A stretch of 64,000 nucleotides of DNA from Gammaproteobacteria bacterium (GTDB lineage Bacteria > Pseudomonadota > Gammaproteobacteria > Pseudomonadales > JAUIET01). The translations under genes were made by a program, and so were the position numbers. Under the pieces are notes generated by a model. That model saw only the letters and a program-made list of their open reading frames with translations. It did not search any database and was not told the origin of the DNA. The stretch is taken from the NCBI GenBank assembly GCA_030429735.1, contig JAUIET010000012.1, positions 1 through 64,000 on the forward strand, given 5' to 3'. Shown here piece after piece: positions 9,298-26,624 of this stretch (the stretch's first letter is position 1; every line of letters starts with the position of its first letter).

Positions 9298-9346
9298 GAT
9301 CAGCCTTAGCGGTCCTTAGCGTGTTTTTTTGCTCGTTGTGGTTTGC

Positions 9347-9374: not shown

Positions 9375-9421
9375 CAAAACCATGCAGGAGTTTGCAGTAC
9401 GTAAATTTGTCGCGCCAGAAC

Positions 9422-9449
9422 TGATCTGAACGCAAATACGCCACGTAGC
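9422..9449 (+). promoter_or_regulatory. ECF promoter of the DUF2892 gene
   Basis: TGATCT (9422-9427), 16 bp and CGTAGC (9444-9449), ending 46 bp before the start codon at 9496. It is divergent from the folE promoter in the same intergenic region. Confidence 0.6.
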
Positions 9450-9495
9450 TTGCTGCTCATGAATTGTTAAACCGAAAAACGGTTGAGATAACACT

Positions 9496-9723
9496 ATGAT
9501 TGAACGAAATTTGGGAAATGTTGAACGTGTGGTGCGGCTGATATTCGGAGTAATACTGGCCCTATGGCTATTGCAGCAACCCAGTTACACTATCGCTGAC
9601 ATTATGGCCGGTGTGGTGGCTCTGTTCCTGATATTGAACGGCATATTCTCGCGCTGCTATCTGTGGTACGTGCTGGACATCAGCAGCGCGGAGTCACCAT
9701 CAGACAGCAGAACCTGCCAATAA
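9496..9723 (+). CDS. DUF2892 family inner-membrane protein
   Basis: A 75-residue protein. The N-terminal NLGNVERVVRLIFGVIL is the typical DUF2892 opening, and two membrane helices follow (about residues 12-30 and 35-52). The YgaP-like membrane half occurs alone or fused to rhodanese; here it is alone. Its role is unknown. The promoter match in front suggests it belongs to the light-stress regulon. Confidence 0.78.
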   Translation: MIERNLGNVERVVRLIFGVILALWLLQQPSYTIADIMAGVVALFLILNGIFSRCYLWYVLDISSAESPSDSRTCQ

Positions 9724-9737
9724 TCACACGGCAATAT

Positions 9738-9765
9738 TGAACCGATATGCGCTTCCAGGCGTATA
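9738..9765 (+). promoter_or_regulatory. ECF promoter of the SRPBCC-SDR gene
   Basis: TGAACC (9738-9743), 16 bp and CGTATA (9760-9765). One mismatch to TGATCC. The expected start of transcription is about 9772, giving a leader of under 30 bases before the GTG at 9800. Confidence 0.55.
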
Positions 9766-9799
9766 AGTATACGCAGAGTAACCTTAACCAGGAGAGACA

Positions 9800-11299: not shown

Positions 11300-12253
11300 A
11301 TGAGCGACACTAAAATTGTACTTGGGCTGAGTGGCTGTCTGGCAGGCCAGGAAGTTCGCTACGATGGCGCCAGTAAGCGCTTCAAGTTGCGCAAGAAGCT
11401 TCAGGAGTCGTTCGAGCTCAGGCCATTCTGCCCGGAGGTGGCCATTGGCTTGGGAGTTCCACGTAAAACACTGCGCCTGGTAGGCGAACAGAATGCACCG
11501 CAGGTGATCGAAAGTGACGGCACTTTGAACGTCACGTCGAAATTGCAGCAATACGCCGGTCGTGTCGCCAAGTCAATTGAGAGCAGCTCGGAGCTTTGTG
11601 GATTTATTGTCTGCAAGGGTTCGCCTTCATGCGGCATGGAAGGCGTAAAACGCTACAACGAACAAGGTAATGTGCTGGGCCATGATACCAGTGGTGTGTT
11701 CACCGCGGAACTGATCAGGCGCCTGCCTCATTTGCCGGTTGAAGAAGACGGGCGCTTAAACGATCGTGGCTTGTTTGAGAATTTTCTTACCAGGGTGTTT
11801 GCACTGCAACGCTGGCGCGCTTTGGAAAGCCAAGGGCTCTCTGCCTCTGGTCTGCTGGACTTTCACCGCAGGCACAAATTCTTGCTATTGGCCCATAGCC
11901 AATCAGCGTACCGCAGTCTTGGTCCAATGCTGGCTAACCTGGCTTCCCGTGAACTGACGGAGCTTGCGCAGAATTACATTATTGAATTCATGGCGGGCAT
12001 GGCGAGGGTGCCAACACAGGGGCAGCACAGCAATGTATTGATGCATTTGCAGGGCTACGTCAAAAACTCGCTTAAACCACGAGAGCGCGAAGAACTGGCC
12101 GAATCCATTCTAGCGTATCGGAATTGTGAATTGCCACGCCAGGCGCCAATGACTTTGCTGAAGCATCATTTATTGAATTTTCCTAACGAATACGCTCAAT
12201 CACAATATTACCTGGAGCCATTTCCACGACATATGTTAGTCGAGCGTTACTAG
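11300..12253 (+). CDS. DUF523/DUF1722 (YbgA-like) protein
   Basis: A 317-residue protein. The N-terminal DUF523 half has LSGCLAGQEVRYDG, PFCPEVAIGLG and CKGSPSCG, a set of Cys residues that could hold metal. The C-terminal DUF1722 half (about 190-310) contains FHRRHKFLLLAHSQSAYR, as in E. coli YbgA. ybgA lies next to the photolyase gene in E. coli, so its presence in a photolyase-rich island fits a role in light or DNA-damage response, though the activity is unproven. It may be read through from the SDR gene (70 bp). Its last 18 bases overlap the convergent gene. Confidence 0.88.
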   Translation: MSDTKIVLGLSGCLAGQEVRYDGASKRFKLRKKLQESFELRPFCPEVAIGLGVPRKTLRLVGEQNAPQVIESDGTLNVTSKLQQYAGRVAKSIESSSELCGFIVCKGSPSCGMEGVKRYNEQGNVLGHDTSGVFTAELIRRLPHLPVEEDGRLNDRGLFENFLTRVFALQRWRALESQGLSASGLLDFHRRHKFLLLAHSQSAYRSLGPMLANLASRELTELAQNYIIEFMAGMARVPTQGQHSNVLMHLQGYVKNSLKPREREELAESILAYRNCELPRQAPMTLLKHHLLNFPNEYAQSQYYLEPFPRHMLVERY

Positions 12254-13708
12254 GCTTGCGTCAGCAAGGGTTTTAATGGTCAGCGTGCCGCTGCGGTCTC
12301 TGATCATAAATTTGTGCAGAATTCGGTAAGTGTCTTTATCAAAACCCAATGATATTGTTGTGAGCCTGGTGGCGCTATCGTCCAACTGCGTTACTGACTC
12401 GCTTGTTAGCTCATTTGCTGTGATCGAGCCCTGCAAACGCCAACTGCCAAGATACGCCCAGTTCGATACGGCATGAACATCAGTGATGTTGTGCTCGGTA
12501 TTGGTTTCGCACACCAGTACATCGCCGTCATAGGGCCAGCTATCAACGCGCTTGCTTTCCAGTGCCAATTGCAAACGCACATTATGCTGCACGGTACTTT
12601 CCTGGCCGATACAGGCACCGGCGCATTTCTTTAACTGGAAACCAAAGCAGGCACCCTTGCCCTTTTCCAGCCCCAACAGTTTTTTACACAGCATGTGCTC
12701 ATCCGCCAGGTTTCGCAATGCACTGGTGGCTGAACTGCGCGAACTGTAAATTCCATAGCTAATGCCTTCTGGTGCGTGTTCTACCAGGCGGTCTTTCACC
12801 TGGCTGTGCAGGTAGCCATTCCGGTCTTCATGGAGTTTTATCGTCCACAGCTTTTTCATGGGCCGCTGGCGGCGATTGTAGATGGGTCGCAAGTTTTTTA
12901 TATCATGATTTTCCAGCAGTAACGCGCCAAGCTCGCCTGCGCATGGCTGGTAGTTCACGTTACGAACCTCTTGTGCCATTCGCATCTCACGAGGCTCCCT
13001 AACATCGGCCCCAAAATGTGACTTAACGCGGGTGCGCATGGTTTTACTTTTGCCAACATACAACAACGACTCGTCTTCTCCATAGAAATAGTACACGCCG
13101 GGTGAGTCAGGAATGGCCTGAATCATGCTGCTGTCGAGGTAACTCGGAACACTGGCGCCGGTGAGTTGTTCGGCGGCAGCGGCGTTCACTGCGGTCAAGC
13201 CATGTTGGTCTATGGCGTAATTTAGAAACGCCCTTGTTGCCTGCACATCAGCCATCGCACGATGTCGGTCGTTAGCGGTGTAGCCAATTCGGGCAATTAT
13301 CTTGCCAAGGCTGTATCCGGACCAGTGCGGGAACAGGCGCCGCGCAAGTTTCACCGTACACACTATATTCGGTCGAAAACGGTAGCCGCATTGCGCAAAG
13401 TTTTGTTTTAGAAATGCGTAATCAAATCGTGCGTTGTGGGCGATAAACACAGTGTCGTTGATCAATGACCACAGTTGCGGCGCTATGTCTTCAAACCCCT
13501 GGGCATCAGCAACCATACCATTGGTGATACCGGTCAGCGATGAAATGTAGGGAGGAATGCTGATGGTCGGGTTCAGTAGTGTTTGAAACTCGTGCTCGGC
13601 ACCGTCGGTGTCCAACAACAGTGCGCCCACTTCGGTAATGCGGTCTCGGCTGGCGTTGGTTCCGGTGGTTTCAAGATCAACCACCGCACAGACTCGGTCT
13701 AGTAACAA
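12236..13708 (-). CDS. DnaQ-like exonuclease fused to a UvrC-type GIY-YIG nuclease
   Basis: A 490-residue fusion. Residues 5-165 are a DEDDh 3'-5' exonuclease (VVDLETTG, NARFDYAFL, HRAMADVQAT). Residues 195-275 are a GIY-YIG nuclease (GVYYFYGEDESLLYVGKS), like UvrC or Cho. The C-terminal third carries a Cys cluster (CFGFQLKKCAGACIG) also seen in UvrC-like proteins. Such fusions are found in many gammaproteobacteria and are thought to act in excision repair. It lies downstream of the photolyase gene, separated by a 104-bp inverted-repeat element. Confidence 0.87.
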   Translation of the reverse strand: MLLDRVCAVVDLETTGTNASRDRITEVGALLLDTDGAEHEFQTLLNPTISIPPYISSLTGITNGMVADAQGFEDIAPQLWSLINDTVFIAHNARFDYAFLKQNFAQCGYRFRPNIVCTVKLARRLFPHWSGYSLGKIIARIGYTANDRHRAMADVQATRAFLNYAIDQHGLTAVNAAAAEQLTGASVPSYLDSSMIQAIPDSPGVYYFYGEDESLLYVGKSKTMRTRVKSHFGADVREPREMRMAQEVRNVNYQPCAGELGALLLENHDIKNLRPIYNRRQRPMKKLWTIKLHEDRNGYLHSQVKDRLVEHAPEGISYGIYSSRSSATSALRNLADEHMLCKKLLGLEKGKGACFGFQLKKCAGACIGQESTVQHNVRLQLALESKRVDSWPYDGDVLVCETNTEHNITDVHAVSNWAYLGSWRLQGSITANELTSESVTQLDDSATRLTTISLGFDKDTYRILHKFMIRDRSGTLTIKTLADASLVTLD

Positions 13709-13857: not shown

Positions 13858-15297
13858 TCAGCCAGAGTTTTTCGGCATTGCCTTGTGCGCTGCCAGTGCG
13901 CGTTCGCGCGCCATTTTATGTTCTACCACAGGGAACGGGTAGTTCACACCCAATTCAACGCCGGCGTCTTTCAAAACCTGAGCGGGCGCTTTACCTGGCT
14001 CGTGAATGTATTTCGCGGGTAGGGCAGCCAGTTCCGGAACGTACTGGCGAATGTAGTCACCTTTGGCATCAAATTTCTGGCTTTGCAAGGTTGGGTTGAA
14101 TATACGGAAGTAGGGCGCTGCATCAGCGCCACACCCAGCGGCCCATTGCCAGCTTGCCGTATTATTCGCCTGGTCTGCGTCAACCAGCGTGTCCCAAAAC
14201 CATGCCTCGCCATGTTTCCAGTGTTGTAAGCAGTGCTTCACCAGGAACGATGCCACCACCATTCGAACGCGATTGTGCATCCAACCGGTGTGCCATAGTT
14301 GCCGCATGCCGGCGTCAACCAGCGGGTAACCGGTCTGACCTTTCGACCACACCTTGCGTAGCTGCTCGTCATCCTGCCAGGGAAAACCGGCAAACTCCGG
14401 TCGAAACGGGTCGGTTGGTAACGTGGGCCAGTGGTGTAACAAGTAATACGCAAAATCACGCCAGACAAGTTCTCGCAGATACGCCGTAGCGCCTTCCTGA
14501 ATATCCGGGTTTTGTTGCACGGCTTGCTCTACCTGATGCCAGATGACCCTGGGGCTGATCTCGCCAAAGTGCAAGTGTGGTGACACTTGTGATGTACCGT
14601 CAATGGCTGGAATATCGCGATCAGTTTTGTAGTCAGCGACGGCTTCAGCCAAAAAATGCTGCAGCTTGTGATGCGCACCCTGCCCACCGGGCTGCCAGGT
14701 GTCGCGCAGGCCGCCGGCCCAGTCCGGTGCTACTGGAAGCAAGTTCAGTTCCTCCAACGTGCACGAACCTGGTAGTGTGTCATTGAACCAGTTGCCGGCG
14801 TCGGGTGGCACAGGCGCACGGCCGGGCGATGGTCGCCGCAGGCAGCTTTTATAGAAAGGAGTGAATACCTTGTACGGGCTGTTGTCGTCTTTAACGATCG
14901 ATTCCGGTTCGAACAACAACGTGCCGCAATAGCGGTGCACGTCGACAGCCGGCTGCAGCACCTTGTAGACCCGCTGTTCCAATGCGGCAGCGTCGGGTTC
15001 GTAACAGCGGCTTAAATGTACTGTGCTAAGATCATTGGCGGCGCACAGTTCGCTGAGAATGCTTTGCGAGTTGCCATGAAAAAGATGCAAGGTTCCACCC
15101 AGGCCTGAGATATCGGCTTGCAGTGCGGCCAGACTGTGGTGCAACCACCAACGGCTGGCACCCCCTAAGGCGCGAAGATTTTCCTCATCAAGTATGTAAA
15201 CCGCAATGATCGCGTTACCCTGGTTGACCGCTGCATCCAGAGCGGAGTTATCAATAACGCGAAGATCTTGGCGGAACCACAGCAGCGAACGCGGCAT
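13858..15297 (-). CDS. phrB: Class I deoxyribodipyrimidine photolyase
   Basis: A 479-residue protein repairing cyclobutane pyrimidine dimers with reduced FAD and usually a folate antenna. The N-terminal photolyase domain starts PRSLLWFRQDLRVIDN. The FAD domain carries TGYPLVDAGMRQLWHTGWMHNR and ASWQWAAGCGADAAPYFRIF. Length is typical. It follows chrR by 16 bp and should be co-transcribed as rpoE-chrR-phrB, a link known in singlet-oxygen regulons. Confidence 0.95.
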   Translation of the reverse strand: MPRSLLWFRQDLRVIDNSALDAAVNQGNAIIAVYILDEENLRALGGASRWWLHHSLAALQADISGLGGTLHLFHGNSQSILSELCAANDLSTVHLSRCYEPDAAALEQRVYKVLQPAVDVHRYCGTLLFEPESIVKDDNSPYKVFTPFYKSCLRRPSPGRAPVPPDAGNWFNDTLPGSCTLEELNLLPVAPDWAGGLRDTWQPGGQGAHHKLQHFLAEAVADYKTDRDIPAIDGTSQVSPHLHFGEISPRVIWHQVEQAVQQNPDIQEGATAYLRELVWRDFAYYLLHHWPTLPTDPFRPEFAGFPWQDDEQLRKVWSKGQTGYPLVDAGMRQLWHTGWMHNRVRMVVASFLVKHCLQHWKHGEAWFWDTLVDADQANNTASWQWAAGCGADAAPYFRIFNPTLQSQKFDAKGDYIRQYVPELAALPAKYIHEPGKAPAQVLKDAGVELGVNYPFPVVEHKMARERALAAHKAMPKNSG

Positions 15298-15313: not shown

Positions 15314-15943
15314 TTAGAAGGTAACGAGAGGGTTTAATAGCCGGCCAACTGCGCCTGTAAAACGCAATTTTCCAGACACAGCCGTTAGCAAAATACAGTC
15401 CTGATCGCGGTGGGCAACGGGTTTGTGCACATGGCTGCCATCACACTCTATGAAATCGCCGGCGGTGTAGCTGCCCAGCTCATCGGAATACCCGCCTTGC
15501 AGCAATACGGTCAGTTCAGTGTCTGTGTGGGTGTGCTGAAAAACGCTTCTGCCTTTTTCCACACGCAGTAATTTTACGCTGTACTCGCCATCATTAATTG
15601 GCAGGGTATAGCTGCTGACGCCACCGGCAATCTTTTTCCAGGGCACAGATTGGATACCGCCAGGAATCAGCGATGACAGGGCCTTGCTGCCTGCCGATCG
15701 GCTGAAGGGCGCCTGCGGCGCGCTGGACCCTAGCTGATCCAGTACACGACTAAACAAGTCATCACTGCAGGACGCCTGGTCGCTGTCGCGCATCATTACC
15801 GCGCCTAGAACATTCAGGTCTTCGGCGACCCGGTTGCAATCATGGCATTGCTCAAGATGAGTGCGCACGCACAGCGCAGCGCCGGTGTTGAGGCTGCCGC
15901 TGGTGAATTCAGCCAATAAGTGCTCGCTTGGGTGATGGCTCAT
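15314..15943 (-). CDS. chrR: ChrR-type cupin anti-sigma factor
   Basis: A 209-residue protein. The N-terminal anti-sigma domain has H29-x3-C33-x2-C36 (HLEQCHDC) plus an upstream His8, the zinc site of ChrR. The C-terminal half is a cupin with QHTHTDTELTVLLQGGY and a later His in DGSHVHKP, a probable second metal site. In Rhodobacter, ChrR holds sigma-E until singlet oxygen triggers its release. It overlaps the sigma gene by 4 bp, so the two are translationally coupled. Confidence 0.93.
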   Translation of the reverse strand: MSHHPSEHLLAEFTSGSLNTGAALCVRTHLEQCHDCNRVAEDLNVLGAVMMRDSDQASCSDDLFSRVLDQLGSSAPQAPFSRSAGSKALSSLIPGGIQSVPWKKIAGGVSSYTLPINDGEYSVKLLRVEKGRSVFQHTHTDTELTVLLQGGYSDELGSYTAGDFIECDGSHVHKPVAHRDQDCILLTAVSGKLRFTGAVGRLLNPLVTF

Positions 15944-16521
15944 AGCTCTTTCTCCTGCAGCAACAGTCTAAGGCGCGCAAGGGCCAATCGTGTTCTGGAT
16001 TTGACGGTGCCCAGTGGAATGTTGAATTCTTCTGCAATCTCGCGCTGAGATTTGCCCTCCAGGTACATTTTTTTCAGCACCAGGGCCTGTTCGGGGTTAA
16101 TTTGTTCGAGGCCAGCACGGATATTGTCCGCCAGCTGGCGCTGACGAAGCTGCACGAGAGGGCCGGGCTCGTCGCTCTCCTGCCATATGTCGTCTACTTC
16201 AATACAGTTGTCATGCTTGTTATTGCGCCGCTGTATATCGATACGCACGTTTCGGGCAATGGTGTATACCCAGGCATCCACATTTGCCTTGGAGCGGTCG
16301 TACAAAGAGGCTTTGTTCCAGACTTTGATCATTGTTTCCTGGACGATTTCCTCTGCCAACGTGGCCGAACCCGACACGCCGGGCGATTTCATCGCGAACG
16401 CCTTGATTCTGCCTGAATAATGATCAAATAACTGTTTGAAGGCTGCTTTATCTTGATCTGCGGCGACTGCGTCGAGCCAGCCCGCTAGTTGTTGTGCTTC
16501 TGCCATATCCATGACCTTCAT
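15940..16521 (-). CDS. rpoE: ECF11-type sigma factor (RpoE, singlet-oxygen response)
   Basis: A 193-residue ECF sigma factor. Region 2 spans about residues 25-95 (FDHYSGRIKAFAM, AEEIVQETMIKVW, ARNVRIDIQRR) and region 4 about 130-190 (LEGKSQREIAEEFNIPLGTV). Pairing with a ChrR cupin partner assigns it to the ECF11 group. It should direct RNA polymerase to TGATCC / CGTA promoters; one lies upstream of its own start, so it is likely self-amplifying. Alternative starts at Met4 and Met6 are possible. Confidence 0.93.
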   Translation of the reverse strand: MKVMDMAEAQQLAGWLDAVAADQDKAAFKQLFDHYSGRIKAFAMKSPGVSGSATLAEEIVQETMIKVWNKASLYDRSKANVDAWVYTIARNVRIDIQRRNNKHDNCIEVDDIWQESDEPGPLVQLRQRQLADNIRAGLEQINPEQALVLKKMYLEGKSQREIAEEFNIPLGTVKSRTRLALARLRLLLQEKEL

Positions 16522-16535
16522 TGTATCCGACCTGT

Positions 16536-16563
16536 ACTACGCCCGCTGAGGGTCGTTGGATCA
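16536..16563 (-). promoter_or_regulatory. ECF promoter of rpoE-chrR-phrB
   Basis: On the minus strand, TGATCC (16563-16558), a 16-bp spacer and CGTAGT (16541-16536), just before the rpoE start at 16521. It suggests autoregulation. Confidence 0.65.
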
Positions 16564-16588: not shown

Positions 16589-16617
16589 TGATCTGGGTCA
16601 GGCCCGGGCTTCGTAGA
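16589..16617 (+). promoter_or_regulatory. ECF promoter of the FAD-DUF1365-cfa operon
   Basis: TGATCT (16589-16594), 17 bp and CGTAGA (16612-16617), 13 bp before the GTG start at 16631. It is divergent from the rpoE promoter. The spacer is one base longer than in the other four sites. Confidence 0.55.
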
Positions 16618-16630
16618 CAGGAATATTACA

Positions 16631-17896
16631 GTGGGTGAGAAAAGCGTGCGTATTGCAGTTATTGGAACAGGTATTTCGGGCCTGGTAGCGGCCAACAAAC
16701 TGAGCCGCAATCACGCGGTTACGGTGTTTGAGGCGGCTGATCGTCTGGGCGGCCACACGGCCACTAAAAACGTGACTGTTGATGGCGAAAACTACGCCAT
16801 TGATACCGGATTTATTGTGTTTAACGATCGGACTTACCCGGAATTTATCAAGCTGCTGGACAGCATGGGCATCCCTTCGCAGCCCACGACCATGGGATTC
16901 AGTGTGTGCTGTGAGCGTACCGGTCTGGAATACAGTGGTGGAAGCCTGAACACGCTGTTTGCTCAGCGGAAAAACCTGCTGTCGCCGTATTTTCTGAGCC
17001 TGGTGCGCGATATTCTGCGGTTTAATCGGCAAGCGCAGCATCATTTTGAGCACGGTGAACTGGACCCAGAGCAAACGCTGGACCAGTATCTCCACCAACA
17101 CAAGTATGGCACCGCGTTTGTGCGGCACTATCTCGCACCAATGGCCGCGGCTATCTGGTCGTCCAGCCAGCAAGCCGTGCTGGACTTTCCTGTGCTGTTC
17201 TTCGTGCGGTTTTTTAAAAACCATGGTTTGTTGCAACTTCGCGACCGACCGCAATGGAGAACCTTGCTTGGCGGGTCCAGCCGCTACCTTGCCCCGCTGT
17301 CAAAGCCGTTCAAAGACCACATTCGCTTAAGCTGCCCTGTTCAAAAAATTGTGCGCCATGAAACTGGGGTAACCGTGCTTACTGAACGCTTCGGCAAGGA
17401 AGAGTTTGATCACGTAGTGGTTGCGGCTCATGCTGATGACGCATTATCAATGCTTGCGGATCCAAGTGAGGCCGAACGCGACATTCTGGCGGCCATTCCG
17501 TACCGGCAGAATTCGGTGGTGCTGCATACCGACACACGCGTTTTACCAGAGCGTCACTCAACCTGGTCCAGCTGGAACTATCGAATCACCAACTCAGGAC
17601 AGGAATTGCCGGTGCTCACGTACAACATGAATATTCTGCAGCGCATTGAATCCGCGCACACATTTTGCGTAACACTCAATCACGATGAGGGCATAGAGAC
17701 AAGCAAGATACTTGGGCGTTATCAGTACGCACACCCCGAATTCAGTGCGGGTGCCGTGACCGCGCAATCACGATGGTCGGAAATCAATGGCGTGCAAAAC
17801 ACCTGGTATTGTGGCGCATACTGGCGCAACGGATTTCATGAAGATGGAGTGAGCAGTGCGCTGCGAGTTGTTGACCGATTGAATCCATGTCAATGA
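16631..17896 (+). CDS. FAD-dependent amine-oxidase-like protein
   Basis: A 421-residue flavoprotein. The N-terminal dinucleotide motif is IAVIGTGISGLVAANKL (residues 6-22) with FEAADRLGGH following. It belongs to the NAD/FAD-binding family always seen beside DUF1365 and a CFA-synthase homologue; the set is associated with modification of unsaturated or furan fatty acids, though the exact reaction here is not provable. First gene of the operon; it overlaps the next gene by 10 bp. The GTG start is only 13 bp from the promoter -10. Confidence 0.9.
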   Translation: MGEKSVRIAVIGTGISGLVAANKLSRNHAVTVFEAADRLGGHTATKNVTVDGENYAIDTGFIVFNDRTYPEFIKLLDSMGIPSQPTTMGFSVCCERTGLEYSGGSLNTLFAQRKNLLSPYFLSLVRDILRFNRQAQHHFEHGELDPEQTLDQYLHQHKYGTAFVRHYLAPMAAAIWSSSQQAVLDFPVLFFVRFFKNHGLLQLRDRPQWRTLLGGSSRYLAPLSKPFKDHIRLSCPVQKIVRHETGVTVLTERFGKEEFDHVVVAAHADDALSMLADPSEAERDILAAIPYRQNSVVLHTDTRVLPERHSTWSSWNYRITNSGQELPVLTYNMNILQRIESAHTFCVTLNHDEGIETSKILGRYQYAHPEFSAGAVTAQSRWSEINGVQNTWYCGAYWRNGFHEDGVSSALRVVDRLNPCQ

Positions 17897-18669
17897 GTCC
17901 GGTCATGTCTGTGCCCATGAACAACGCGGAATTCGATGGCGGCGTGTTTACAGGTACTGTTCGGCATCGCCGTTTCAGAACCACTAAACGTGACTTTCAC
18001 TATCGCGTGTTTATGACGCTGGTAAATCTGGACAAAGTGTCAGCACTGTTCGGCGCTGGTCGCTTATGGGGCTGCGGCAGAGCGCTGGTTCAGTTTAATC
18101 GAGCAGACTATCTGGCCAGTTCACGAACGCTGCGTGATGAGGTCTTGTGGTCGCTCAACGAGGTTCTGGGCATCAAACACTGTGGTCAGATACTGATGTT
18201 AACCAACCCGCGTATCTTCGGTTATCTGATCAACCCGATCACAGTTGTGTTTTGTTTTAATCAGGACAATACGGGGTTGCAAGCGGTGATTCTGGAGGTC
18301 ACGAACACGCCTTGGAAAGAGCGCACACGCTACGTGTTGCGGTGTGATCCTGAATTAAGAACGCAGCGTATTCAGTTTGGTAAGGAGATGCATGTTTCAC
18401 CGTTTTTGCCGATGAGCATGCAGTACGAATTTTGTTGCAACACACCAGGTGATCGCGTGGTAGTACATCTTCGCAATCTGGAAGACGGGTGCTGCGTTTT
18501 CGATGCAACCCTGGCCTTAAAAAACGAGGGCTTATCCTCAGCAACAAAAGGAAAGGTACTGCTGTGTTACCCGTGGATGACCATGAAAGTGTTCCTGGCG
18601 ATTCACTGGCAGGCGTTGAAGTTGTTTCTGCGGGGTGTGCCTGTAGTGGCCCATCCGAAGCATCAATAA
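17887..18669 (+). CDS. DUF1365 family protein
   Basis: A 260-residue protein. Motifs typical of DUF1365 are seen: GTVRHRRFRTTKRDFHYRVF near the N-terminus, TNPRIFGYLINPITVVFCF, and EVTNTPWKER. The biochemical role is unknown; the gene nearly always sits between the FAD protein and a CFA-type methyltransferase in ECF11 regulons. An internal ATG at 17911 is an alternative start. The 10-bp overlap with the upstream gene supports one operon. Confidence 0.9.
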   Translation: MSMSPVMSVPMNNAEFDGGVFTGTVRHRRFRTTKRDFHYRVFMTLVNLDKVSALFGAGRLWGCGRALVQFNRADYLASSRTLRDEVLWSLNEVLGIKHCGQILMLTNPRIFGYLINPITVVFCFNQDNTGLQAVILEVTNTPWKERTRYVLRCDPELRTQRIQFGKEMHVSPFLPMSMQYEFCCNTPGDRVVVHLRNLEDGCCVFDATLALKNEGLSSATKGKVLLCYPWMTMKVFLAIHWQALKLFLRGVPVVAHPKHQ

Positions 18670-18689
18670 TGGTATGTGAATAGAATTTT

Positions 18690-20000
18690 ATGAACAATGT
18701 ATTGGAACATTCGAACGACTCGGGACATTCGGGGGCCTCAATAGCCAGCCTCAATATCCTCAAACAGAAGAAATCATTGCGCGGCAATAGAATGGCGCGC
18801 AAGCTGGTTCATTCCCTGCTTGGCCGCTTGCAGGTGGGCAGTATCACGCTAACCGACGGTATTGGTGTTCAGCAATTCGGACTTGCCAATACCGAGCGTG
18901 TGGAATTGCAGGCCAGTGTCACCATCAAAAACGATGATGCTTACGCGCAAATTGTTCGCAGTGGTGTGCTGGGCGCGGGGGAATCGTACATTCTTGGGTA
19001 CTGGACGAGCCCAGACGTCGTTGCGCTGATTCGCGTGTTTTGCGCCAATATGAGCACCATGACTGCCATGGACAGTCATGGCGGGCTGCGGGCAACCTTG
19101 TCTAACTTGCTGCAGCGAATCAGTGCGAGAAATACGTTACAGGGGTCCAAGAAAAACATTGTTGCGCACTATGATTTGAGCAATGATTTTTTCGAAGCAT
19201 TTCTGGATCGTTCGATGATGTATTCCTCGGCAATTTTTCCGCACGAAAACGCCAGCCTTGAAGAAGCGGCGCAGTTCAAGATACAACGCATTTGTGAGCG
19301 CCTGCAGCTCAATGAGAATGACCATCTGCTGGAGATAGGCACCGGTTGGGGTGCGTTAGCCTGTTACGCGGCCACGCATTACGGTTGTAAAGTAACAACG
19401 ACCACTATTTCAGATGAGCAATTTGCCCGTGCACAGCGACGCATAACCGAGGCAGGCGTCGGGCATTTGGTAACGCTGCTCAACCAGGATTACCGTGCCT
19501 TGCAAGGACGCTATGACAAGTTGGTTTCCGTCGAAATGATAGAAGCCGTTGGTTACGAATACTACGATGAATTTTTTCGCACTTGCAGTGGTTTGTTGAA
19601 ACAGGATGGCTTGATGTTGATTCAGGCCATCACTATTGCAGACCAGCGTTTTGAACTTGCCAAGAACTCTGTCGATTTTATTAAAAAGTATATTTTTCCC
19701 GGTGGCTGCTTACCGTCAAATGCAGTTATTGCCACGCATATCGCAAATGATACTGATATGATGATTGTTGGTTTGGAAGACATAGGTTTGCATTATGCCG
19801 AGACACTGGCGCATTGGCGTGCCCGTTTCAACAGTAAGATTGAGAGCGTGCAATCGTACGGTTTTGACGAGCGTTTTCGCCGTATGTGGGAGTACTACCT
19901 TTGTTACTGCGAAGGCGGTTTTCGAGAGCGTGTCATTAGCACTGTACAGGTTCTTGCGGCAAAACCGGCACGCCTTGAAACGCCCGCAATTGCTCAGTAG
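18690..20000 (+). CDS. cfa: Cyclopropane-fatty-acid-synthase family methyltransferase
   Basis: A 436-residue SAM-dependent enzyme. The SAM site is LLEIGTGWGALACYAA (about residues 213-228). Further motifs are NIVAHYDLSNDFFEAFLD upstream and VEMIEAVGYEYYDEFF. It methylates double bonds of membrane phospholipid acyl chains, or starts furan fatty-acid synthesis. Third gene of the operon, 20 bp after DUF1365. CFA-type genes are known members of singlet-oxygen regulons, matching the promoter at 16.6 kb. Confidence 0.92.
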   Translation: MNNVLEHSNDSGHSGASIASLNILKQKKSLRGNRMARKLVHSLLGRLQVGSITLTDGIGVQQFGLANTERVELQASVTIKNDDAYAQIVRSGVLGAGESYILGYWTSPDVVALIRVFCANMSTMTAMDSHGGLRATLSNLLQRISARNTLQGSKKNIVAHYDLSNDFFEAFLDRSMMYSSAIFPHENASLEEAAQFKIQRICERLQLNENDHLLEIGTGWGALACYAATHYGCKVTTTTISDEQFARAQRRITEAGVGHLVTLLNQDYRALQGRYDKLVSVEMIEAVGYEYYDEFFRTCSGLLKQDGLMLIQAITIADQRFELAKNSVDFIKKYIFPGGCLPSNAVIATHIANDTDMMIVGLEDIGLHYAETLAHWRARFNSKIESVQSYGFDERFRRMWEYYLCYCEGGFRERVISTVQVLAAKPARLETPAIAQ

Positions 20001-20721
20001 TACGGCGCCAGGTATGGTGCTGTTGCTGACTTTTCTGGTCAACGTGCATGCGTCTGCAGCCGTCGTTGAAGACGTGCAACCTTATGTCACTGGCAAGGCT
20101 TTTGAACCAGGTGGCAGTACGCTGTTGTATATAGAAGAGCATTACAAAGTGGGCGATACCCTGCATAAGGTGGTGTATCTTGATGCCGACAGAGCACTTG
20201 TTGCCGAAAAACTGATTGACTACAGCACCAGCGCATACGCTCCCGACGTGAAAGTTGATGATTACCGCGTGAAGCGGGCAACGGCAATAGAGCATGGCAC
20301 CGATGTATGCAAAGTCACGATTACCAATCTCGAAGATAGCACGGCCAACAACACAGCCACGTTTAAACCTGACAAGCATGATGTTGTGGATGCCGGCTTC
20401 GACAACTATGTTCGTAGCCATTGGGACGCGTTGAGCCAAGGCCAAACGGTGAAGTTTCGCTTTATGTTACCGCTGCGTGACAGCACTATAGGGCTGAAAC
20501 TGAAGCCCAGACAATGTGAGCAGGGCGACGGTACCAATCTTGACCGCGCCATCTGCCTTAGAATATCCCCCGCTAATTGGCTGGTGTCTGCATTAGCCGC
20601 CCCTATCGATTTAGTGTACGAACGCGACACGCAGCGATTGCTGCGGTTTGTAGGGCAGGGGCAGCTCCCAGATGCCGACGGTAAAAGCATGGAAGTTGAT
20701 TTGCGCTACGAGTACCAGTAG
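19975..20721 (+). CDS. Exported hypothetical protein in the cfa operon
   Basis: About 248 residues. The TTG start at 19975 gives a signal peptide with KR near the start, a hydrophobic core (MVLLLTFLVNV) and cleavage around ASA; an ATG at 20014 lacks the basic n-region. The mature part is beta-rich with two cysteines near CEQGDGTNLDRAIC. I do not recognise the family. It overlaps the end of cfa by 26 bp, so co-expression is likely. I infer a periplasmic role linked to the lipid modification, possibly carrying or sensing acyl products. Confidence 0.6.
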   Translation: MKRPQLLSSTAPGMVLLLTFLVNVHASAAVVEDVQPYVTGKAFEPGGSTLLYIEEHYKVGDTLHKVVYLDADRALVAEKLIDYSTSAYAPDVKVDDYRVKRATAIEHGTDVCKVTITNLEDSTANNTATFKPDKHDVVDAGFDNYVRSHWDALSQGQTVKFRFMLPLRDSTIGLKLKPRQCEQGDGTNLDRAICLRISPANWLVSALAAPIDLVYERDTQRLLRFVGQGQLPDADGKSMEVDLRYEYQ

Positions 20722-20729
20722 CCCGGACA

Positions 20730-21452
20730 ATGCGGTATCGATCGGCCCTGTTCTGGTTGGGTTTCATTCTTATTATCCCCCAGGCGTTATATGTGCGGCG
20801 CATGGCACATCGTGCAGCCCCTGCACCCGGTGCCCGAACAGGTGTGGTTGGTAGCGGTGAATCAAGGTTTCATTTGTACTCCATTGGGGATTCCATAATC
20901 GATGGTGTAGGAACGTCTGGCCTGCAACACGCGATACCCGGTCAAACTGCGGCAAGTCTTGCGCAGCAGTTAGGCGCAAGGGTTGCTTGGCATGCTGCCG
21001 GCAAATCAGGGCATCGCGCGGCGCAGGTGCTGGAGTTATTGAACTCCCAACCGCCTGACAACTCGCCAGAGTTCGTGCTTGTCTCGGTGGGTGTCAACGA
21101 TGTGACGGGCTTGCGCACCTTGCGCCAATGGCGCCTTGATTTGCGCAATTTGCTGCAGGCGCTGAGCGAAAGGTGTGCTGAGGCAAGCATTTTAATGATT
21201 GGTTTGCCGCCCATGGGCGAATTTCCATTGCTGCCACAGCCCTTGAGAGCCCTGTTCGGATTGCGTGCCAGGCAGTTTGAAGAAGCTGCGCTGGCAGAGA
21301 TAAGCAAGTTCGAATGTGTGAAGTATTCGCGCATCGATTTGGCCGCCGATGCAGACAGCTTCGCCGAGGATGGTTATCATCCATCGGAACGTGCCTGCAC
21401 CGCGCTGGGGCATGATCTGGCGGCGAAGCTGCTGCCCCATTGTCAGCGTTAA
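20730..21452 (+). CDS. SGNH/GDSL hydrolase
   Basis: A 240-residue protein with an N-terminal membrane anchor (residues 6-22). The SGNH blocks are YSIGDSIIDG (Ser catalytic), SAG-like GKSGHRA, VSVGVNDV with the Asn, and EDGYHPSERA with the Asp and His. These enzymes cleave esters, often of lipids or acylated polymers. It follows the exported protein by 8 bp as the last operon member. It may remove or turn over damaged acyl groups in the envelope. Confidence 0.83.
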   Translation: MRYRSALFWLGFILIIPQALYVRRMAHRAAPAPGARTGVVGSGESRFHLYSIGDSIIDGVGTSGLQHAIPGQTAASLAQQLGARVAWHAAGKSGHRAAQVLELLNSQPPDNSPEFVLVSVGVNDVTGLRTLRQWRLDLRNLLQALSERCAEASILMIGLPPMGEFPLLPQPLRALFGLRARQFEEAALAEISKFECVKYSRIDLAADADSFAEDGYHPSERACTALGHDLAAKLLPHCQR

Positions 21453-21500
21453 TACCCGCTTGTCCGCCACTTGGCCGCCGCAAGCACTGGGAGACTTGCA

Positions 21501-23825
21501 TTGAGTCTAAAAAAAATAACAGTCCTTTTGGCGTTTTTATGGCCGCTGTTGAACAGTTCGCTGCTTGCCGCGCAGGACATTGACACCAGTAGTATTCGCA
21601 GTGATTTTTTGGCGCTTGAAAACGCGATTCGTGACAATACTCTGGCGGCAGATGATATCGATTACACTGTGGCAACTGTCAGCGCCCAGAGAGCCATTAC
21701 CAATGAGTGCATTACTCGCGAGCAGTTAAACAGTACCCGACTGAAGAATGAGCAGGCCACGCTCGGCCTGGAAGATAATGACGTGGCACTGTCGCGGCCG
21801 TTGCAAGAAGAACTGGCTGCGTTGTCGTCTGAGCTAGAAAAGATTCAGCGCCGTGCCCTGGATTGCCAACTGCTGAGCAATCGGGCCGATCACTTGCTGG
21901 CTTCGCTTACCGACTATAAAGGTTCACTCCTGATGTTGCGGCTAAAGGACCAGAACATCGATGCATTTGATGCCGTCCAAACCTTGTACGCGCAGCGCAC
22001 TAGCCTTCTGAACTCATTGTCGAGCGTTGGCGATACGCTGTGGCAACAGCTGGTTGACGGGCTGAGCTTGCGGACTCAGTGGTTGTATTTTGGGGTGGTT
22101 GCATTACTGGTTGGTATCTATGTAACTCTGTTTCGCCGCGGCAAATCCGAACAGCTGACGCAAGAACACGGTTTTGGCAGCTTTCATCGATTCAGCCTGG
22201 CGTTTCGTGAGGCGATAAGCCGATTTGCGATTGTGTTGTTGCCATTGACTGTAATAAGTCTCAAATGGCTGCTACTGGGTGGTGCGTCTGGCGATGCTGC
22301 GGAATACGTTCGTAATTTGAGCTATATCCTAACAGTATTTATGTGGTCTATGGTGATGATCCGAGCCACGCTTGAACCGGCCAATGAACAATGGTTGTTT
22401 GTACCGGTGCAACCGCGCAGAAGAATTGCGTTGGCCAATCGATTGCGCGGCTTGCTGGTATTGGTGCTGGTGTATGTTGTCTTGCAGCTGACGACCTCTA
22501 TTTCCGGAATGCCAGCGGAAATAGCCAATGTACTGGCCCTTTTGCTAAGACTTGCGATTGGTATCAGCCTGATCTGGTTGCTCTGGCTTATCGACAGTCT
22601 GGAAAAAATGGAAGGGCGCGGCCGCGGCCTGCGCACCGTGTTGGTGCTGATACTTCTGATAGCTGTACTGGCTGATCTGACCGGCTATCAGAATTTTGCA
22701 GCGTTTCTTATCCAAGGCTTCATTGGTACTTTGGTAGCGTTTTCCTTGCTCTGGCTGCTTAACGAATTTACTAAAGAGGTGTTCGATGGCCTGGACACGG
22801 GCAAACGGGAGTGGCATAGAAGCATCCGCGCGCGCCTGTCGATTGAGCCCGGTGAGCATATTTCGGGTTTGGTGTGGTTTCGTTTTCTGGCACTGATATT
22901 GGTCTGGATTGTTGCGGCAATAGTATTTCTGCAATCCTGGAATATCTGGCATGTCAGCAAAGCATGGTTCAGCAACGCGTTCAGCGAGGGTTTCTCGATA
23001 GGTGATACCCAGCTAGTACCTGCAAAAATATTGTTCGGCGTGATGTTGTTCGCAACTGTGCTGTTGTTATCAAATGCGATCAAGCAGCGCCTGACCGAAC
23101 GCTCTACCCTGCTCACAAGGCTTGAGCCGAGTGCCAAAGAAACCGTCGTGACCTTAACCGGTTATACCGGTTTCATGATAGCGCTGCTGATTGGCTTGTC
23201 GTTGGCCGGCTTTAGTTTCCAAAATCTGGCAATTGTGGCCGGTGCCCTGTCAGTAGGTATTGGTTTTGGCCTGCAGAATATCGTCAATAATTTTGTCTCG
23301 GGCATTATTCTGTTGTTTGAACGGCCCATACGGCGCGGCGACTGGGTGGTGGTAGGTGGCACAGAAGGGTTTGTGAAAAACATTCGAGTGCGCTCAACCG
23401 AAATAGAAACCTTCGATCGGTCGGATGTTATGGTGCCAAATTCCGAGTTTATTTCGCAGCAAGTCACGAACATGACCTTGAACGACCCGCACGGTCGTGT
23501 GAAAGTGACCGTTGGCGTTGCCTATGGCAGCGATACCGGCTTGGTCAAAGAGTTGTTGCTGGGGATTGCCAACGAACATGAGCAGGTCTTGAAAGAAGGC
23601 AATTTCCGAAAGGTTCCGCCTCCGCAGGTGCTATTTACTGGTTTTGGTGATAGTTCGCTGGATTTTGAACTTAGGTGCTTTGTGCGCGACATCAGGATGT
23701 GGCCAGTTGTAAAAAGTGACCTTAACTTTTCAATTGATGCGGCCTTCAGAGAGCATGCTATTCAAATACCTTTCCCGCAGCGAGATGTGCACATGATTCC
23801 GCCTGCGGACCCTGGTGTGGAATAA
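21501..23825 (+). CDS. MscS-family mechanosensitive channel, large (MscK/YbiO-like)
   Basis: A 774-residue protein from TTG 21501, chosen because GGGAGA precedes it by about 7 bp and it opens directly with the signal peptide (KKITVLLAFLWPLL). A periplasmic coiled domain spans about residues 30-190, and several membrane helices follow. The C-terminal MscS core has VAGALSVGIGFGLQNIVNNF (pore helix) and RPIRRGDWV, the conserved beta-domain motif. It should release solutes on osmotic downshock. The gene for a ZntB-like transporter follows after 3 bp. Confidence 0.9.
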   Translation: MSLKKITVLLAFLWPLLNSSLLAAQDIDTSSIRSDFLALENAIRDNTLAADDIDYTVATVSAQRAITNECITREQLNSTRLKNEQATLGLEDNDVALSRPLQEELAALSSELEKIQRRALDCQLLSNRADHLLASLTDYKGSLLMLRLKDQNIDAFDAVQTLYAQRTSLLNSLSSVGDTLWQQLVDGLSLRTQWLYFGVVALLVGIYVTLFRRGKSEQLTQEHGFGSFHRFSLAFREAISRFAIVLLPLTVISLKWLLLGGASGDAAEYVRNLSYILTVFMWSMVMIRATLEPANEQWLFVPVQPRRRIALANRLRGLLVLVLVYVVLQLTTSISGMPAEIANVLALLLRLAIGISLIWLLWLIDSLEKMEGRGRGLRTVLVLILLIAVLADLTGYQNFAAFLIQGFIGTLVAFSLLWLLNEFTKEVFDGLDTGKREWHRSIRARLSIEPGEHISGLVWFRFLALILVWIVAAIVFLQSWNIWHVSKAWFSNAFSEGFSIGDTQLVPAKILFGVMLFATVLLLSNAIKQRLTERSTLLTRLEPSAKETVVTLTGYTGFMIALLIGLSLAGFSFQNLAIVAGALSVGIGFGLQNIVNNFVSGIILLFERPIRRGDWVVVGGTEGFVKNIRVRSTEIETFDRSDVMVPNSEFISQQVTNMTLNDPHGRVKVTVGVAYGSDTGLVKELLLGIANEHEQVLKEGNFRKVPPPQVLFTGFGDSSLDFELRCFVRDIRMWPVVKSDLNFSIDAAFREHAIQIPFPQRDVHMIPPADPGVE

Positions 23826-23828
23826 AGC

Positions 23829-24806
23829 ATGGGTATGCAAACAATGACCGCTATTTTATCCGCTCTTGAGCTTGACGGATTAGGGGGAGCGCGTCAGTTA
23901 ACGCCCAGTGAGCTCTTGCAACCAGCACGCGGCCCGCGCTGGATACATATTGACGCTGCGCAGTGCGAATCGGCCGAAATGCTGACGGAGTTTTCACCGT
24001 CGCTGGACATCTCCACTGCAGAAGCAATGCTTGAGCGGGACGTACGGCCACGTTGCCTGCAGCTTGATGACAACGTGCACTTGATCCTGCGTGGGGTGAA
24101 CCTAAATGCCGATGAAAACGCCGAAGATATGGTTGCGGTGCGTCTGTGGATAGAAAAGGACTTGCTAGTCAGCAGTCGATTCCGGCGTCTGAAATCCATG
24201 ATTGATGCTCGCGAGCGATTGCTGGCGGGTAGAGGCGCAAAATCAATAGCCGATCTGGTCACACAGGTTTGCGGTCAGTTGCTGGAACGCATGGAGCCCG
24301 TGCTGGGAGATCTGGATGACGATACCGACGCTCTGGAAGAAGAAATTCTGGAGAACCCTGCGCCTGAGTTGCGAAGAAAAATTACTGACGTAAGAAAACG
24401 CGCCATACTGTTTCGACGTTATATTGCTCCGCAACGCGAAGCGATTGGCCAATTACGTCGTGCCGAGGTGAGTTGGTTATCAGACCGGCATGTGCGAAGT
24501 TTGCAGGAGAGTCATGATCGGGTAACCCGTTATGTTGAAGATCTGGATGCGATCCGCGAACGCGCGCAGATTGTAAAAGATGAGCTTGCCAGCTCACTCA
24601 GCGACCAACTAAACAGAAATTTGTATGTCTTATCGGTAGTGACTGCTATTTTCTTACCACTGGGATTTTTGACCGGGTTGTTTGGAATCAACATAGCCGG
24701 AATGCCCGGGGTAAACAACGAGGCTGCATTTTGGATCTTCCTGGCCTTTTTGATGACGGTAGTTGCCGTACAAGTAGTGTTCTTTAAACGAAACAGGTGG
24801 TTCTGA
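23829..24806 (+). CDS. zntB: CorA-family zinc transporter ZntB
   Basis: A 325-residue protein. A large N-terminal cytoplasmic domain is followed by two C-terminal membrane helices. The first ends in GLFGINIAGMPG, carrying the GxN signature as GIN, typical of ZntB. A basic tail (KRNRWF) closes the protein. ZntB moves zinc across the inner membrane; CorA-family activity toward magnesium cannot be ruled out. It starts just after the MscS gene and is probably co-transcribed. Confidence 0.87.
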   Translation: MGMQTMTAILSALELDGLGGARQLTPSELLQPARGPRWIHIDAAQCESAEMLTEFSPSLDISTAEAMLERDVRPRCLQLDDNVHLILRGVNLNADENAEDMVAVRLWIEKDLLVSSRFRRLKSMIDARERLLAGRGAKSIADLVTQVCGQLLERMEPVLGDLDDDTDALEEEILENPAPELRRKITDVRKRAILFRRYIAPQREAIGQLRRAEVSWLSDRHVRSLQESHDRVTRYVEDLDAIRERAQIVKDELASSLSDQLNRNLYVLSVVTAIFLPLGFLTGLFGINIAGMPGVNNEAAFWIFLAFLMTVVAVQVVFFKRNRWF

Positions 24807-24860
24807 TTCGCCATTGTTGATTAGGCCCCTCATAATCTCTCACCAGCATAGATTGAAGTT

Positions 24861-26624
24861 ATGCTCATTGATACATGCAGATTTCTGCATCATTACGCCA
24901 GTATTTTTTTGCTGCTATTGTTGCTTTCAAGCGGTGTTGCCGCCGCCGATCGAAAACCGGTAACGCTTTCTGTGAGCGGCGTTAACAAGGCGCTGGAAAC
25001 AAACGTGCTGGCACACCTCAGCATAAACAAGGCGCTTGAGAAAGACGGTTTACTGTCTGACGCCGCTGTTCGACGCTTGAGCAAACGCGTTGAGGAACAA
25101 TCGCGCACTGCGTTGCAGGCTTATGGCTACTACGAACCAACTATTAACTTCCAGCTGCAGGAGGGCGACGAATGGACACTGAGTATCGATATTGTACCGG
25201 GTACGCAAACGCGCCTGCGAGATGTGAACATTCAACTTGTTGGACAAGGAGCCACCAATGAGGCATTGCGCAATATCATAGAACGATCTGGTCTGGCCCA
25301 GGGAGCCGCTTTAAACCATCAGGTGTATTCAGCGTATAAAAGCGCGACAACGAAGATGGCCTATAACCTTGGGTATCTGGATGGTGAATTCCAGCACAAT
25401 GAACTGAGGGTGTATCCGCAGCAGCATGTGGCTGACATAAACCTGACATTTAATACCGGCAAGCCCTATTTTTTCGGTCCTTTGACCATTGAGCAAACCA
25501 TCCTGAACGATCAATTCGTCAGGCGTTATGTAAACATCGAGGAAGGTGATCCATTTGAAAGCTCAAAACTGGTGAAGTTGCAGCTCGCACTGAGCGAGAC
25601 AAACTACTTCAGTCATGTTGACGTGGATGTGAAACGCGATGCCGCCACTGACCAGCAAATTCCAGTAACCATCAGGGCTGGCGAACGCAAGGCCAGCAAG
25701 TATGTGTTCAGTCTCGGGTTTGGCACAGATACCGGTCCTCGCGCTGGTATAGGTGCCGATTTTCGACGGGTTAATCGCAACGGTCACCGCCTGAAAAGCC
25801 GTCTTCAGCTGTCGTCGGTGCAGTCGACACTGGCGGCTCAATATCTGATACCCGTAGGCGATGTGAGCAGCGAGTTTCTGGATTTTACGAGCAATCTGGA
25901 GCAGGAAACGGTTAATGACGTAGACGCTACAGAATACCGTATAGGCACCAGTCTGAATCAAAACCGCTGGGGTGGTCGGCGTCGACTGGGACTGGATTTG
26001 CTGCACGAGAATTGGTCATTCGGTGATGGACCGAGCAATAATGCGACCCTGTTGTTTCCAAGCCTTAACTTCACTTTTAAAAACGCCGACGATCCCTTTT
26101 TTGCGCGCCGCGGGTACAGCTACACCGCGCTGCTGCAAGGAGCCGCGGAGAATGTGGCGAGTGATGTGAGTTTCGCGCAAGTGCAATTGTTCGCGAGCAC
26201 GGTATTTTCCGTGAGCGAGCGCAGTCGGCTGCTGTTGCGTGGGGAGTTTGGTGCTATTGCGACCGATAGTTTCGATGACTTGCCGCCGTCGTTGCGGTTT
26301 TTTGCCGGTGGCTCGCAAAGTGTGCGTGGCTATGGCTACAAAGACCTTAGCCCGCGCGATGCCGACGGAAACATTATTGGTGGCAAGTACGTGACCACTA
26401 TTAGCGCAGAGCTGGATTACCTTCTGTACCAAAACTATGGGGTTGCAGCGTTCATTGATGCAGGCGATGCAACCCGTGACCCAGTCAGCCGCTTCAAGCT
26501 TGGGGCAGGGGTCGGGTTTCGGTACAGAAGCCCTGTTGGTATGCTCAGACTTGACCTGGCACACCCGTTTGATGATCCGAATGAATCCTTTCGGATTCAC
26601 TTGAGCTTTGGAATCGATTTATGA
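24861..26624 (+). CDS. tamA: Translocation and assembly module outer-membrane protein TamA
   Basis: A 587-residue Omp85-family protein. A signal peptide spans residues 10-28 (ending GVAAA), then three POTRA domains to about residue 270, and a 16-strand barrel with the conserved FFAGGSQSVRGYGYKDL (about 480) and the final strand FRIHLSFGIDL. It inserts outer-membrane proteins together with TamB. Stop and tamB start overlap (ATGA). Confidence 0.93.
   Translation: MLIDTCRFLHHYASIFLLLLLLSSGVAAADRKPVTLSVSGVNKALETNVLAHLSINKALEKDGLLSDAAVRRLSKRVEEQSRTALQAYGYYEPTINFQLQEGDEWTLSIDIVPGTQTRLRDVNIQLVGQGATNEALRNIIERSGLAQGAALNHQVYSAYKSATTKMAYNLGYLDGEFQHNELRVYPQQHVADINLTFNTGKPYFFGPLTIEQTILNDQFVRRYVNIEEGDPFESSKLVKLQLALSETNYFSHVDVDVKRDAATDQQIPVTIRAGERKASKYVFSLGFGTDTGPRAGIGADFRRVNRNGHRLKSRLQLSSVQSTLAAQYLIPVGDVSSEFLDFTSNLEQETVNDVDATEYRIGTSLNQNRWGGRRRLGLDLLHENWSFGDGPSNNATLLFPSLNFTFKNADDPFFARRGYSYTALLQGAAENVASDVSFAQVQLFASTVFSVSERSRLLLRGEFGAIATDSFDDLPPSLRFFAGGSQSVRGYGYKDLSPRDADGNIIGGKYVTTISAELDYLLYQNYGVAAFIDAGDATRDPVSRFKLGAGVGFRYRSPVGMLRLDLAHPFDDPNESFRIHLSFGIDL

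Follow-up and report, generated by a model that had tools for sequence, protein, structure and literature searches.

What does a gene for an exported protein of no recognised family do behind a fatty-acid modification operon, and does the hydrolase gene that follows it belong there too? The question is raised by a 64,000-nucleotide stretch of a Gammaproteobacteria bacterium (GenBank assembly GCA_030429735.1, contig JAUIET010000012.1, positions 1 to 64,000; hereafter the window). Here a FAD oxidoreductase gene, a DUF1365 gene and a cfa-type methyltransferase gene are followed by the exported protein (19975-20721, labelled EXP) and an SGNH hydrolase. An earlier reading of the letters alone (the sequence-only reading) had taken all five as one operon. 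Comparison with relatives establishes the gene order, the promoter motif, the protein family and a low-resolution fold class and, judged by gene order, EXP is a conserved, so far unnamed member of the furan fatty acid (ufa) operon. We lean, with some reserve, towards EXP as a periplasmic lipid-binding partner of a furan-lipid response under the control of an ECF11 (extracytoplasmic function) sigma factor and ChrR, acting after synthesis, with the SGNH gene as a passenger. What is new is the extension of a known stress-lipid operon into the periplasm; the mechanism that we offer for it is a hypothesis.

The neighbourhood survey of EXP homologues that the sequence-only reading had suggested was run, and it gave a same-strand link behind DUF1365. 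Within the same order, a profile search finds EXP in 55 of 145 genomes, and DUF1365 is present in 105. It occurs in 52 of the 55 EXP genomes compared with 53 of the 90 others (Fisher p ~1e-6, not corrected for kinship). In 42 of the 55, spread over 18 families, DUF1365 precedes EXP on the same strand at a distance of 1.3–4.1 kb. Two genomes, G369 and G397, have it about 8 kb upstream on the same strand, the G397 locus (L068) reading phr-DUF2878-EXP, and in the remaining 11 it has a different place, sits on a separate or a broken contig, or belongs to a genome lacking DUF1365. Neighbourhoods were read for 39 of the 57 EXP places in the order; the remaining counts come from coordinates. The association weakens in the wider class, with DUF1365 present in 10 of 16 EXP genomes (Fisher p 0.004).

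A second sample, the named loci, holds the best 80 of 294 relatives found through the motif V[IVL]DAGFDx[FY][VIL], and is biased to Marinomonas. Among the 63 of these 80 with at least 5.8 kb of upstream sequence, the genes upstream of EXP on the same strand are DUF1365 (55 loci), cfa (54), an NTF2-like gene (52), a short-chain dehydrogenase (SDR) gene (52), FAD oxidoreductase (48) and DUF2878 (45); the sigma factor and ChrR are present in 48. The usual order in relatives is a divergent sigma-ChrR pair facing NTF2-like, SDR, ufaD, ufaO, ufaM, DUF2878 and EXP, often followed by DUF3833. These labels are best BLAST matches of mechanically called open reading frames (ORFs), GC-rich loci giving overlapping wrong-frame ORFs, and a Pfam check of SnoaL_2, adh_short, DUF2878 and DUF3833 covered one example of each.

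EXP is a real, bounded protein family. The window protein alone as query matches 15 of 274 genomes of the class, its own included, and the profile matches 16; across the phylum the profile finds 11 of 299 genomes, all within the same order or class. Searches with the window protein gave no sequence match in Pfam, NCBIfam or PDB, and 15 members compared with Pfam gave no credible match (best E 0.11). Searches of the open-licence literature returned no link between an EXP-like exported protein and ufa genes, EXP having no name to search by. In 54 members not selected by motif, G40 and G227 are found in all, E54 and G141 in 96%, Y52, P90, F142, Y215 and L222 in 94%, and Y68, K79 and D139 in 93%.

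The layout of the locus and of the features linked to it is as follows.

13858 to 15297, reverse strand: DNA photolyase (phr), behind chrR (Pfam FAD_binding_7, 293.9 bits)
15314 to 15943, reverse strand: ChrR-family anti-sigma factor (TIGR02451, 168.4 bits, cut-off 124.5)
15940 to 16521, reverse strand: ECF sigma factor (Sigma70_r2/r4), overlapping chrR
16538 to 16563, reverse strand: ECF11-type promoter motif ahead of sigma-chrR (TGATCC-N16-CGTA), conserved in relatives
16589 to 16615, forward strand: ECF11-type promoter motif ahead of the ufa operon (TGATCT-N17-CGTA)
16631 to 17896, forward strand: FAD oxidoreductase, UfaD-type (Pfam Amino_oxidase; UfaD-UfaO order as in excerpts of PMC7380195)
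17887 to 18669, forward strand: DUF1365 protein, UfaO-type (PF07103, 235.8 bits)
18690 to 20000, forward strand: cfa-type methyltransferase, probably UfaM (CMAS, 284.3 bits; position as in the Halomonas order ufaD-ufaO-ufaM, excerpts of PMC12089945)
19975 to 20721, forward strand: EXP, putative exported protein with an EipB/LolA-like barrel model (neighbourhood counts, predicted fold)
20730 to 21452, forward strand: SGNH/GDSL hydrolase with an N-terminal hydrophobic segment (PF13472), a local neighbour and not a conserved part
9422 to 9447, forward strand: ECF11-type promoter motif ahead of the SRPBCC-SDR fusion gene (motif scan)
9800 to 11230, forward strand: SRPBCC-SDR fusion protein (Polyketide_cyc2 and adh_short)

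The ORF coordinates bear out the tight spacing noted in the sequence-only reading (overlaps or gaps within 30 bp): neighbours in the five-gene run overlap or sit at most 20 bp apart, and the neighbourhood counts exceed chance. The FAD gene has a GTG start and overlaps DUF1365 by 10 bp, cfa follows after 20 bp and overlaps EXP by 26 bp, provided that the TTG start of EXP at 19975 is correct (in-frame alternatives are TTG 19990 and ATG 20014), and SGNH follows EXP after 8 bp. Same-direction genes with short gaps continue past SGNH over 21471-30253 (MscK-like at 21471, CorA/ZntB-like at 23829, TamA/TamB at 24861/26621), so spacing alone does not set the transcript end. A terminator scan came out near shuffle level (14 sites versus a mean of 10.7, s.d. 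3.1) and was not used; it listed no terminator-like site at the cfa-EXP junction and a weak plus-strand one just inside SGNH (20738-20760). A sigma-70 promoter scan, also near shuffle level (7 versus a mean of 8.2), was likewise set aside.

The first three genes are the known furan fatty acid set ufaD-ufaO-ufaM, beside a divergent ECF sigma-ChrR pair. The papers cited here are drawn on as excerpts. In Rhodobacter sphaeroides, RSP1091 is UfaD, RSP1090 (DUF1365) is UfaO and RSP2144 is UfaM (PMC7380195), and in Halomonas the three genes are consecutive, with a UfaM that yields the 11-methyl intermediate in E. coli (PMC12089945). The window shows the same adjoining FAD oxidoreductase and DUF1365 genes, followed by a CMAS-type methyltransferase. 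The ‘cfa’ of the window is thus probably UfaM, the choice between UfaM and Cfa activity resting on gene position. The sequence-only reading had recognised this as the usual fatty-acid modification set, and the Pfam families Amino_oxidase, DUF1365 and CMAS agree; its term ‘undescribed branch’ is too strong for this core, which is a described pathway (PMC7380195).

Two described systems are closest. The R. sphaeroides RSP1091-1087/ufaM system with its sigmaE-ChrR (ECF11) pair shares with the window the UfaD-type FAD oxidoreductase, the UfaO-type DUF1365 protein, the CMAS-type methyltransferase, the sigma-ChrR pair and the ECF11 promoter motif. It differs in having ufaM elsewhere (RSP2144) and RSP1089-1087 after ufaO, whereas the window has EXP as the fourth gene; the excerpts of PMC7380195 and PMC6852236 do not mention EXP. 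The Aeromonas salmonicida cluster NTF2-SDR-FAD-DUF1365-cfa-DUF2878 (PMC10012899) matches the core and order of the full operon in window relatives; as described in the excerpt it ends at DUF2878, with no EXP named. Unlike that cluster, the window has no NTF2, SDR or DUF2878 gene at this place, nor DUF3833, and is a shortened form of the operon. The operons of L176 and L185 likewise lack NTF2 and SDR, and both loci hold ORFs about 50% identical to the SRPBCC-SDR fusion of the window over its length. This fusion possibly takes the place of the operon SDR. Its identity to an operon SDR is only 24%.

The five-gene list of the sequence-only reading was correct and incomplete: the unit also includes the divergent genes for the ECF sigma factor and ChrR (15314-16521) and two facing ECF11-type motifs. 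The sigma factor appears to be of ECF11 type, given its ChrR partner and the TGATCY-N-CGTA motif. In 47 intergenic regions between sigma and operon (46 named loci and the window, near-duplicates included and many from Marinomonas), the motif is present in 43 regions on the operon strand and likewise in 43 on the sigma strand, compared with a mean of 0.5 and a largest value of 4 in mononucleotide shuffles. The test required TGATCY and, 14–19 bases after it, CGTA, CGTT or CATA. The same motif is printed for ChrR-linked sigma factors of P. syringae and Shewanella (PMC5507510, PMC4336711). As far as sequence comparison goes, the region is a shortened furan fatty acid operon under predicted ECF11/ChrR control, with sigma-ChrR divergent from ufaD-ufaO-ufaM-EXP. 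An ECF11-like site also occurs at 18345, inside DUF1365, and may be chance.

A genome-wide pattern count stands beside these results: in the window genome, GTGATCYN{14,18}CGTA has 18 sites, 14 of them outside the window, versus 4 for the reversed control pattern.

The conservation of EXP does not extend to the fifth gene. SGNH is well above the cut-off for Lipase_GDSL_2 (PF13472; 71.6 bits versus 32.9), and its GDS, GxND and DxxH blocks, which we take to be the motif of SGNH/GDSL hydrolases, are visible in the sequence. A homologue is present in 27 of the 145 order genomes, 15 of which, the window genome among them, also hold EXP. The two genes adjoin only in the window: of the other 14 genomes, six have them at least 80 kb apart on one contig and eight on different contigs (draft genomes). 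In G276, of the same genus, a Zn_protease family gene stands behind EXP and SGNH lies 80 kb away. The SGNH label is absent from the stretches around EXP in the 80 named and 53 order or class loci, and none of 22 other genomes has its best SGNH match less than 20 kb from DUF1365. For these counts all 27 best matches were compared by coordinates with EXP and DUF1365, and 20 of the 27 neighbourhoods were read. A photolyase-like or methyltransferase-like ORF was seen near SGNH in L100 and L099, as single cases.

SGNH is probably a passenger, at most sharing the transcript. The net charge of the window protein is +2 before and +4 after the hydrophobic segment, and in 10 of 11 sequences (the window and 10 of the 20 loci read) the charge after is at least that before, a pattern that does not clearly favour a periplasmic catalytic domain. 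The sequence-only reading had extended the operon to the periplasm by both genes, which would hydrolyse or carry modified acyl chains. The extension stands for EXP (42 of 55 genomes; DUF1365 upstream in 55 of 63 named loci), whose export is predicted, and fails for SGNH (0 of 14 other genomes), whose charges lie mostly after the hydrophobic segment; binding or carrying would fit the EXP fold, and hydrolysis found no support. The 8-bp spacing would suit EXP and SGNH as a periplasmic hydrolase branch of the pathway, a version that we consider extremely improbable, contradicted as it is by SGNH standing beside EXP in only one of 15 genomes, by its separation in G276 and from DUF1365, and by the charge distribution.

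Export of EXP to the periplasm by a Sec-type signal peptide is suggested by its N-terminus, which reads KR, a hydrophobic stretch and ASA|AVV, with no Cys in the first 60 residues. A simple hydrophobicity test of N-termini passes 44 of 57 members, with one lipobox-like motif. An AlphaFold2 model built from 57 sequences (the window and named-loci proteins) has a mean pLDDT of 90.1 and a pTM of 0.82; beyond the signal helix it consists mainly of beta structure. The sole Foldseek match in PDB with E ≤0.001 is EipB/DUF1849 (6ntr; 4.6e-4, TM 0.42). In VIA comparisons EipB scores Z 11.1 (root-mean-square deviation 4.5 Å over 190 aligned residues, 6% identity), followed in row 2 by an axonemal protein (10.7) and a DUF1089 protein (10.3); LolA entries reach 5.1–8.5 and RseB/MucB about 6–7, where Z below 8 can reflect a common arrangement, and VioE is also among the matches. 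Foldseek and VIA lists can miss folds. The model thus resembles EipB and, more weakly, LolA, and looks like a lipid-binding barrel. EXP, itself predicted to be exported, may share the cylindrical beta-spiral fold of EipB, a periplasmic envelope protein of Brucella; the two differ in gene neighbourhood and have no sequence match. LolA/RseB-type periplasmic barrels match the fold in part, but EXP members have no Pfam LolA match.

Assignment to a known family by sequence was tried and rejected. None of 15 members matches DUF1849 at E ≤1 (HMMER filters drop most matches above E 0.1), the profile of alignment A4 finds no sequence match in PDB at E ≤1, and Pfam LolA matches none of the 15. Alignment A4 combines the window with 56 of the 80 named loci, after near-duplicates, partial ORFs and over-long ORFs were dropped.

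The EipB likeness also admits EXP as a general envelope-integrity factor, a role supposed for EipB too, here a chaperone of lipoproteins or outer-membrane proteins induced by light stress and having no furan-lipid ligand. EipB is described as LolA- and LolB-like with an unsettled role; eipB mutants are envelope-sensitive, with lipoprotein, outer-membrane protein or other roles left open (PMC10787603). Three of the 55 EXP genomes of the order lack DUF1365, and some named loci have no ufa genes nearby. The genomic partner of EXP across 18 families is nevertheless the ufa operon, and we consider such a general role unlikely.

The RseB and MucB matches bring in a different role, that of a periplasmic sensor reporting lipid damage to sigma/ChrR; these two proteins, which have a LolA-like domain, play that part for RpoE/AlgU. 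A connection between furan fatty acid synthesis and ChrR turnover (PMC6852236) would fit, but the R. sphaeroides ChrR is cytoplasmic (PMC6852236), which leaves no link across the membrane; the excerpts on that species do not mention EXP, and the matches fall below Z 8. We regard a sensor as very unlikely. We doubt just as strongly that EXP is an enzyme with oxidised or furan lipids as its substrates. The polar residues Y52, E54, Y68, K79, D139 and Y215, conserved in 93–96% of the 54 members, and the VioE match (VioE is an enzyme) speak for it; there is no known catalytic motif, however, the conserved residues may be structural, and the invariance of 137–143 (DAGFD) in A4 is partly by construction, the loci having been found by that motif.

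Under the reading of EXP as a lipid-binding partner, singlet oxygen or light stress would free the sigma factor and switch on ufaD-ufaO-ufaM, whose products would act at the inner membrane on the acyl chains of phospholipids, methylating, desaturating and oxidising them. Synthesis of furan fatty acids takes place on phospholipids, and under singlet oxygen these acids are tied to the turnover of ChrR. EXP, once exported, would be soluble in the periplasm and would use an open barrel of EipB/LolA type to bind modified (furan or photo-oxidised) acyl lipids or fragments of them; it would protect or buffer them or hand them over in the direction of the outer membrane, with the lipoprotein DUF3833 as recipient in many relatives. 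EXP would act after furan-lipid synthesis and not in it, because the fatty acid profile of R. sphaeroides did not change when RSP1087, 1088 and 1089 were deleted singly and the R. palustris ufaM/D/O homologues brought back synthesis in an R. sphaeroides triple mutant (PMC7380195). Export, lipid binding and this late action are what we infer. If true, the light-stress response would have a periplasmic lipid arm. EXP travels with the furan fatty acid genes in many marine bacteria, and these membrane lipids may thus have a partner of their own beyond the cytoplasm; EXP, bound to the operon by gene order and often with a lipoprotein gene beside it, gives a concrete handle on the fate of furan fatty acids in the envelope after synthesis.

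Several results weigh against this reading. Furan fatty acid synthesis is described with no mention of EXP (excerpts of PMC7380195), and 53 of the 105 DUF1365 genomes of the order lack EXP. In the wider class, DUF1365 is within about 4 kb in 5 of 16 EXP genomes, the window included, and three of these are divergent. Five loci (L125, L126, L131, L134 and L140) hold EXP-DUF3833 and no ufa gene in the stretch covered, which reaches only 2.6–4.9 kb upstream in L125, L134 and L140; the ligand of EXP may therefore be other than a furan lipid. DUF3833 was not found in the window genome, in a search in which no control genome matched. Thirteen of 57 EXP members fail the simple N-terminal test. Given the axonemal match of the model, the fold does not single out lipid binding, and the likeness to EipB, at that deviation and identity, is superfamily-level at best.

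In the same five loci, EXP-DUF3833 adjoins an ORF of about 154 residues and a SIR2-like ORF (names by eye). A set of nine loci, mostly from Halioglobus/Haliea (L123-L126, L131, L134, L136, L137 and L140), has EXP without ufa genes in the stretch covered, with DUF3833 beside EXP in eight and, by eye, a conserved ORF of about 150 amino acids and a SIR2-like ORF near; some carry DUF523, and L134 has a carotenoid-oxygenase-like ORF near. In G119, G171 and G370 (L021, L026 and L071), EXP stands after a second, distant methyltransferase gene labelled CMAS-like, separate from the ufaM-type one; the label comes from BLAST and was checked by Pfam in G119 only.

DUF3833 lies at most 0.9 kb downstream of EXP in 40 of the 75 named loci (of 80) with at least 0.8 kb of downstream sequence. 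By eye, 47 of 48 N-termini carry a lipobox in which the Cys is followed by S, T, A or G, a residue that, by the lipoprotein sorting rule, presumably directs the protein to the outer membrane. The model, from an alignment (A5) of 33 of the 48 ORFs, has a pLDDT of 94.2 and a barrel like those of fatty-acid-binding proteins (FABPs) and nitrobindins; the best Foldseek match is the FABP-like Ycf58 (7.5e-5). In VIA a designed transmembrane barrel is top (Z 15.2), with BFA1 and spirocyclase at 15.0, nitrobindins at about 13–14 and FABPs at about 9.5. The barrel alone shows no ligand, since the designed transmembrane barrel tops the matches, level with BFA1 and spirocyclase. EXP and DUF3833 could together make up a periplasmic shuttle by which the singlet-oxygen response moves lipids, comparable to the LolA-LolB relay but dedicated to lipids: soluble EXP would collect acyl lipids of the furan or photo-oxidised kind at the inner membrane, and outer-membrane DUF3833 would receive them; we hold this more specific version to be decidedly improbable. 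RSP_1088 is matched to a lipoprotein in a core-regulon table (excerpt of PMC5507510) and may be a candidate DUF3833 counterpart.

DUF2878 is the usual gene before EXP in window relatives. The DUF2878 gene of the window genome is on another contig, beside a penicillin-amidase gene, and a colonisation phenotype was reported in 2026 for the Vibrio DUF2878 protein VC1123 (PMC12971978).

The surroundings of the locus hold further genes. Beside the photolyase are a 2-thiouracil desulfurase/DUF1722 protein (11300-12253) and, at 12236-13708, an RNase_T exonuclease that also carries a GIY-YIG domain, together spanning 11300-13708. At 7122-11230, GTP cyclohydrolase I and then a photolyase-related DPRP protein stand opposite the SRPBCC-SDR fusion, with a second facing pair of ECF11-type motifs between them (9349-9374, reverse strand, and 9422-9447, forward strand). 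The window looks like a photo-oxidative stress island.

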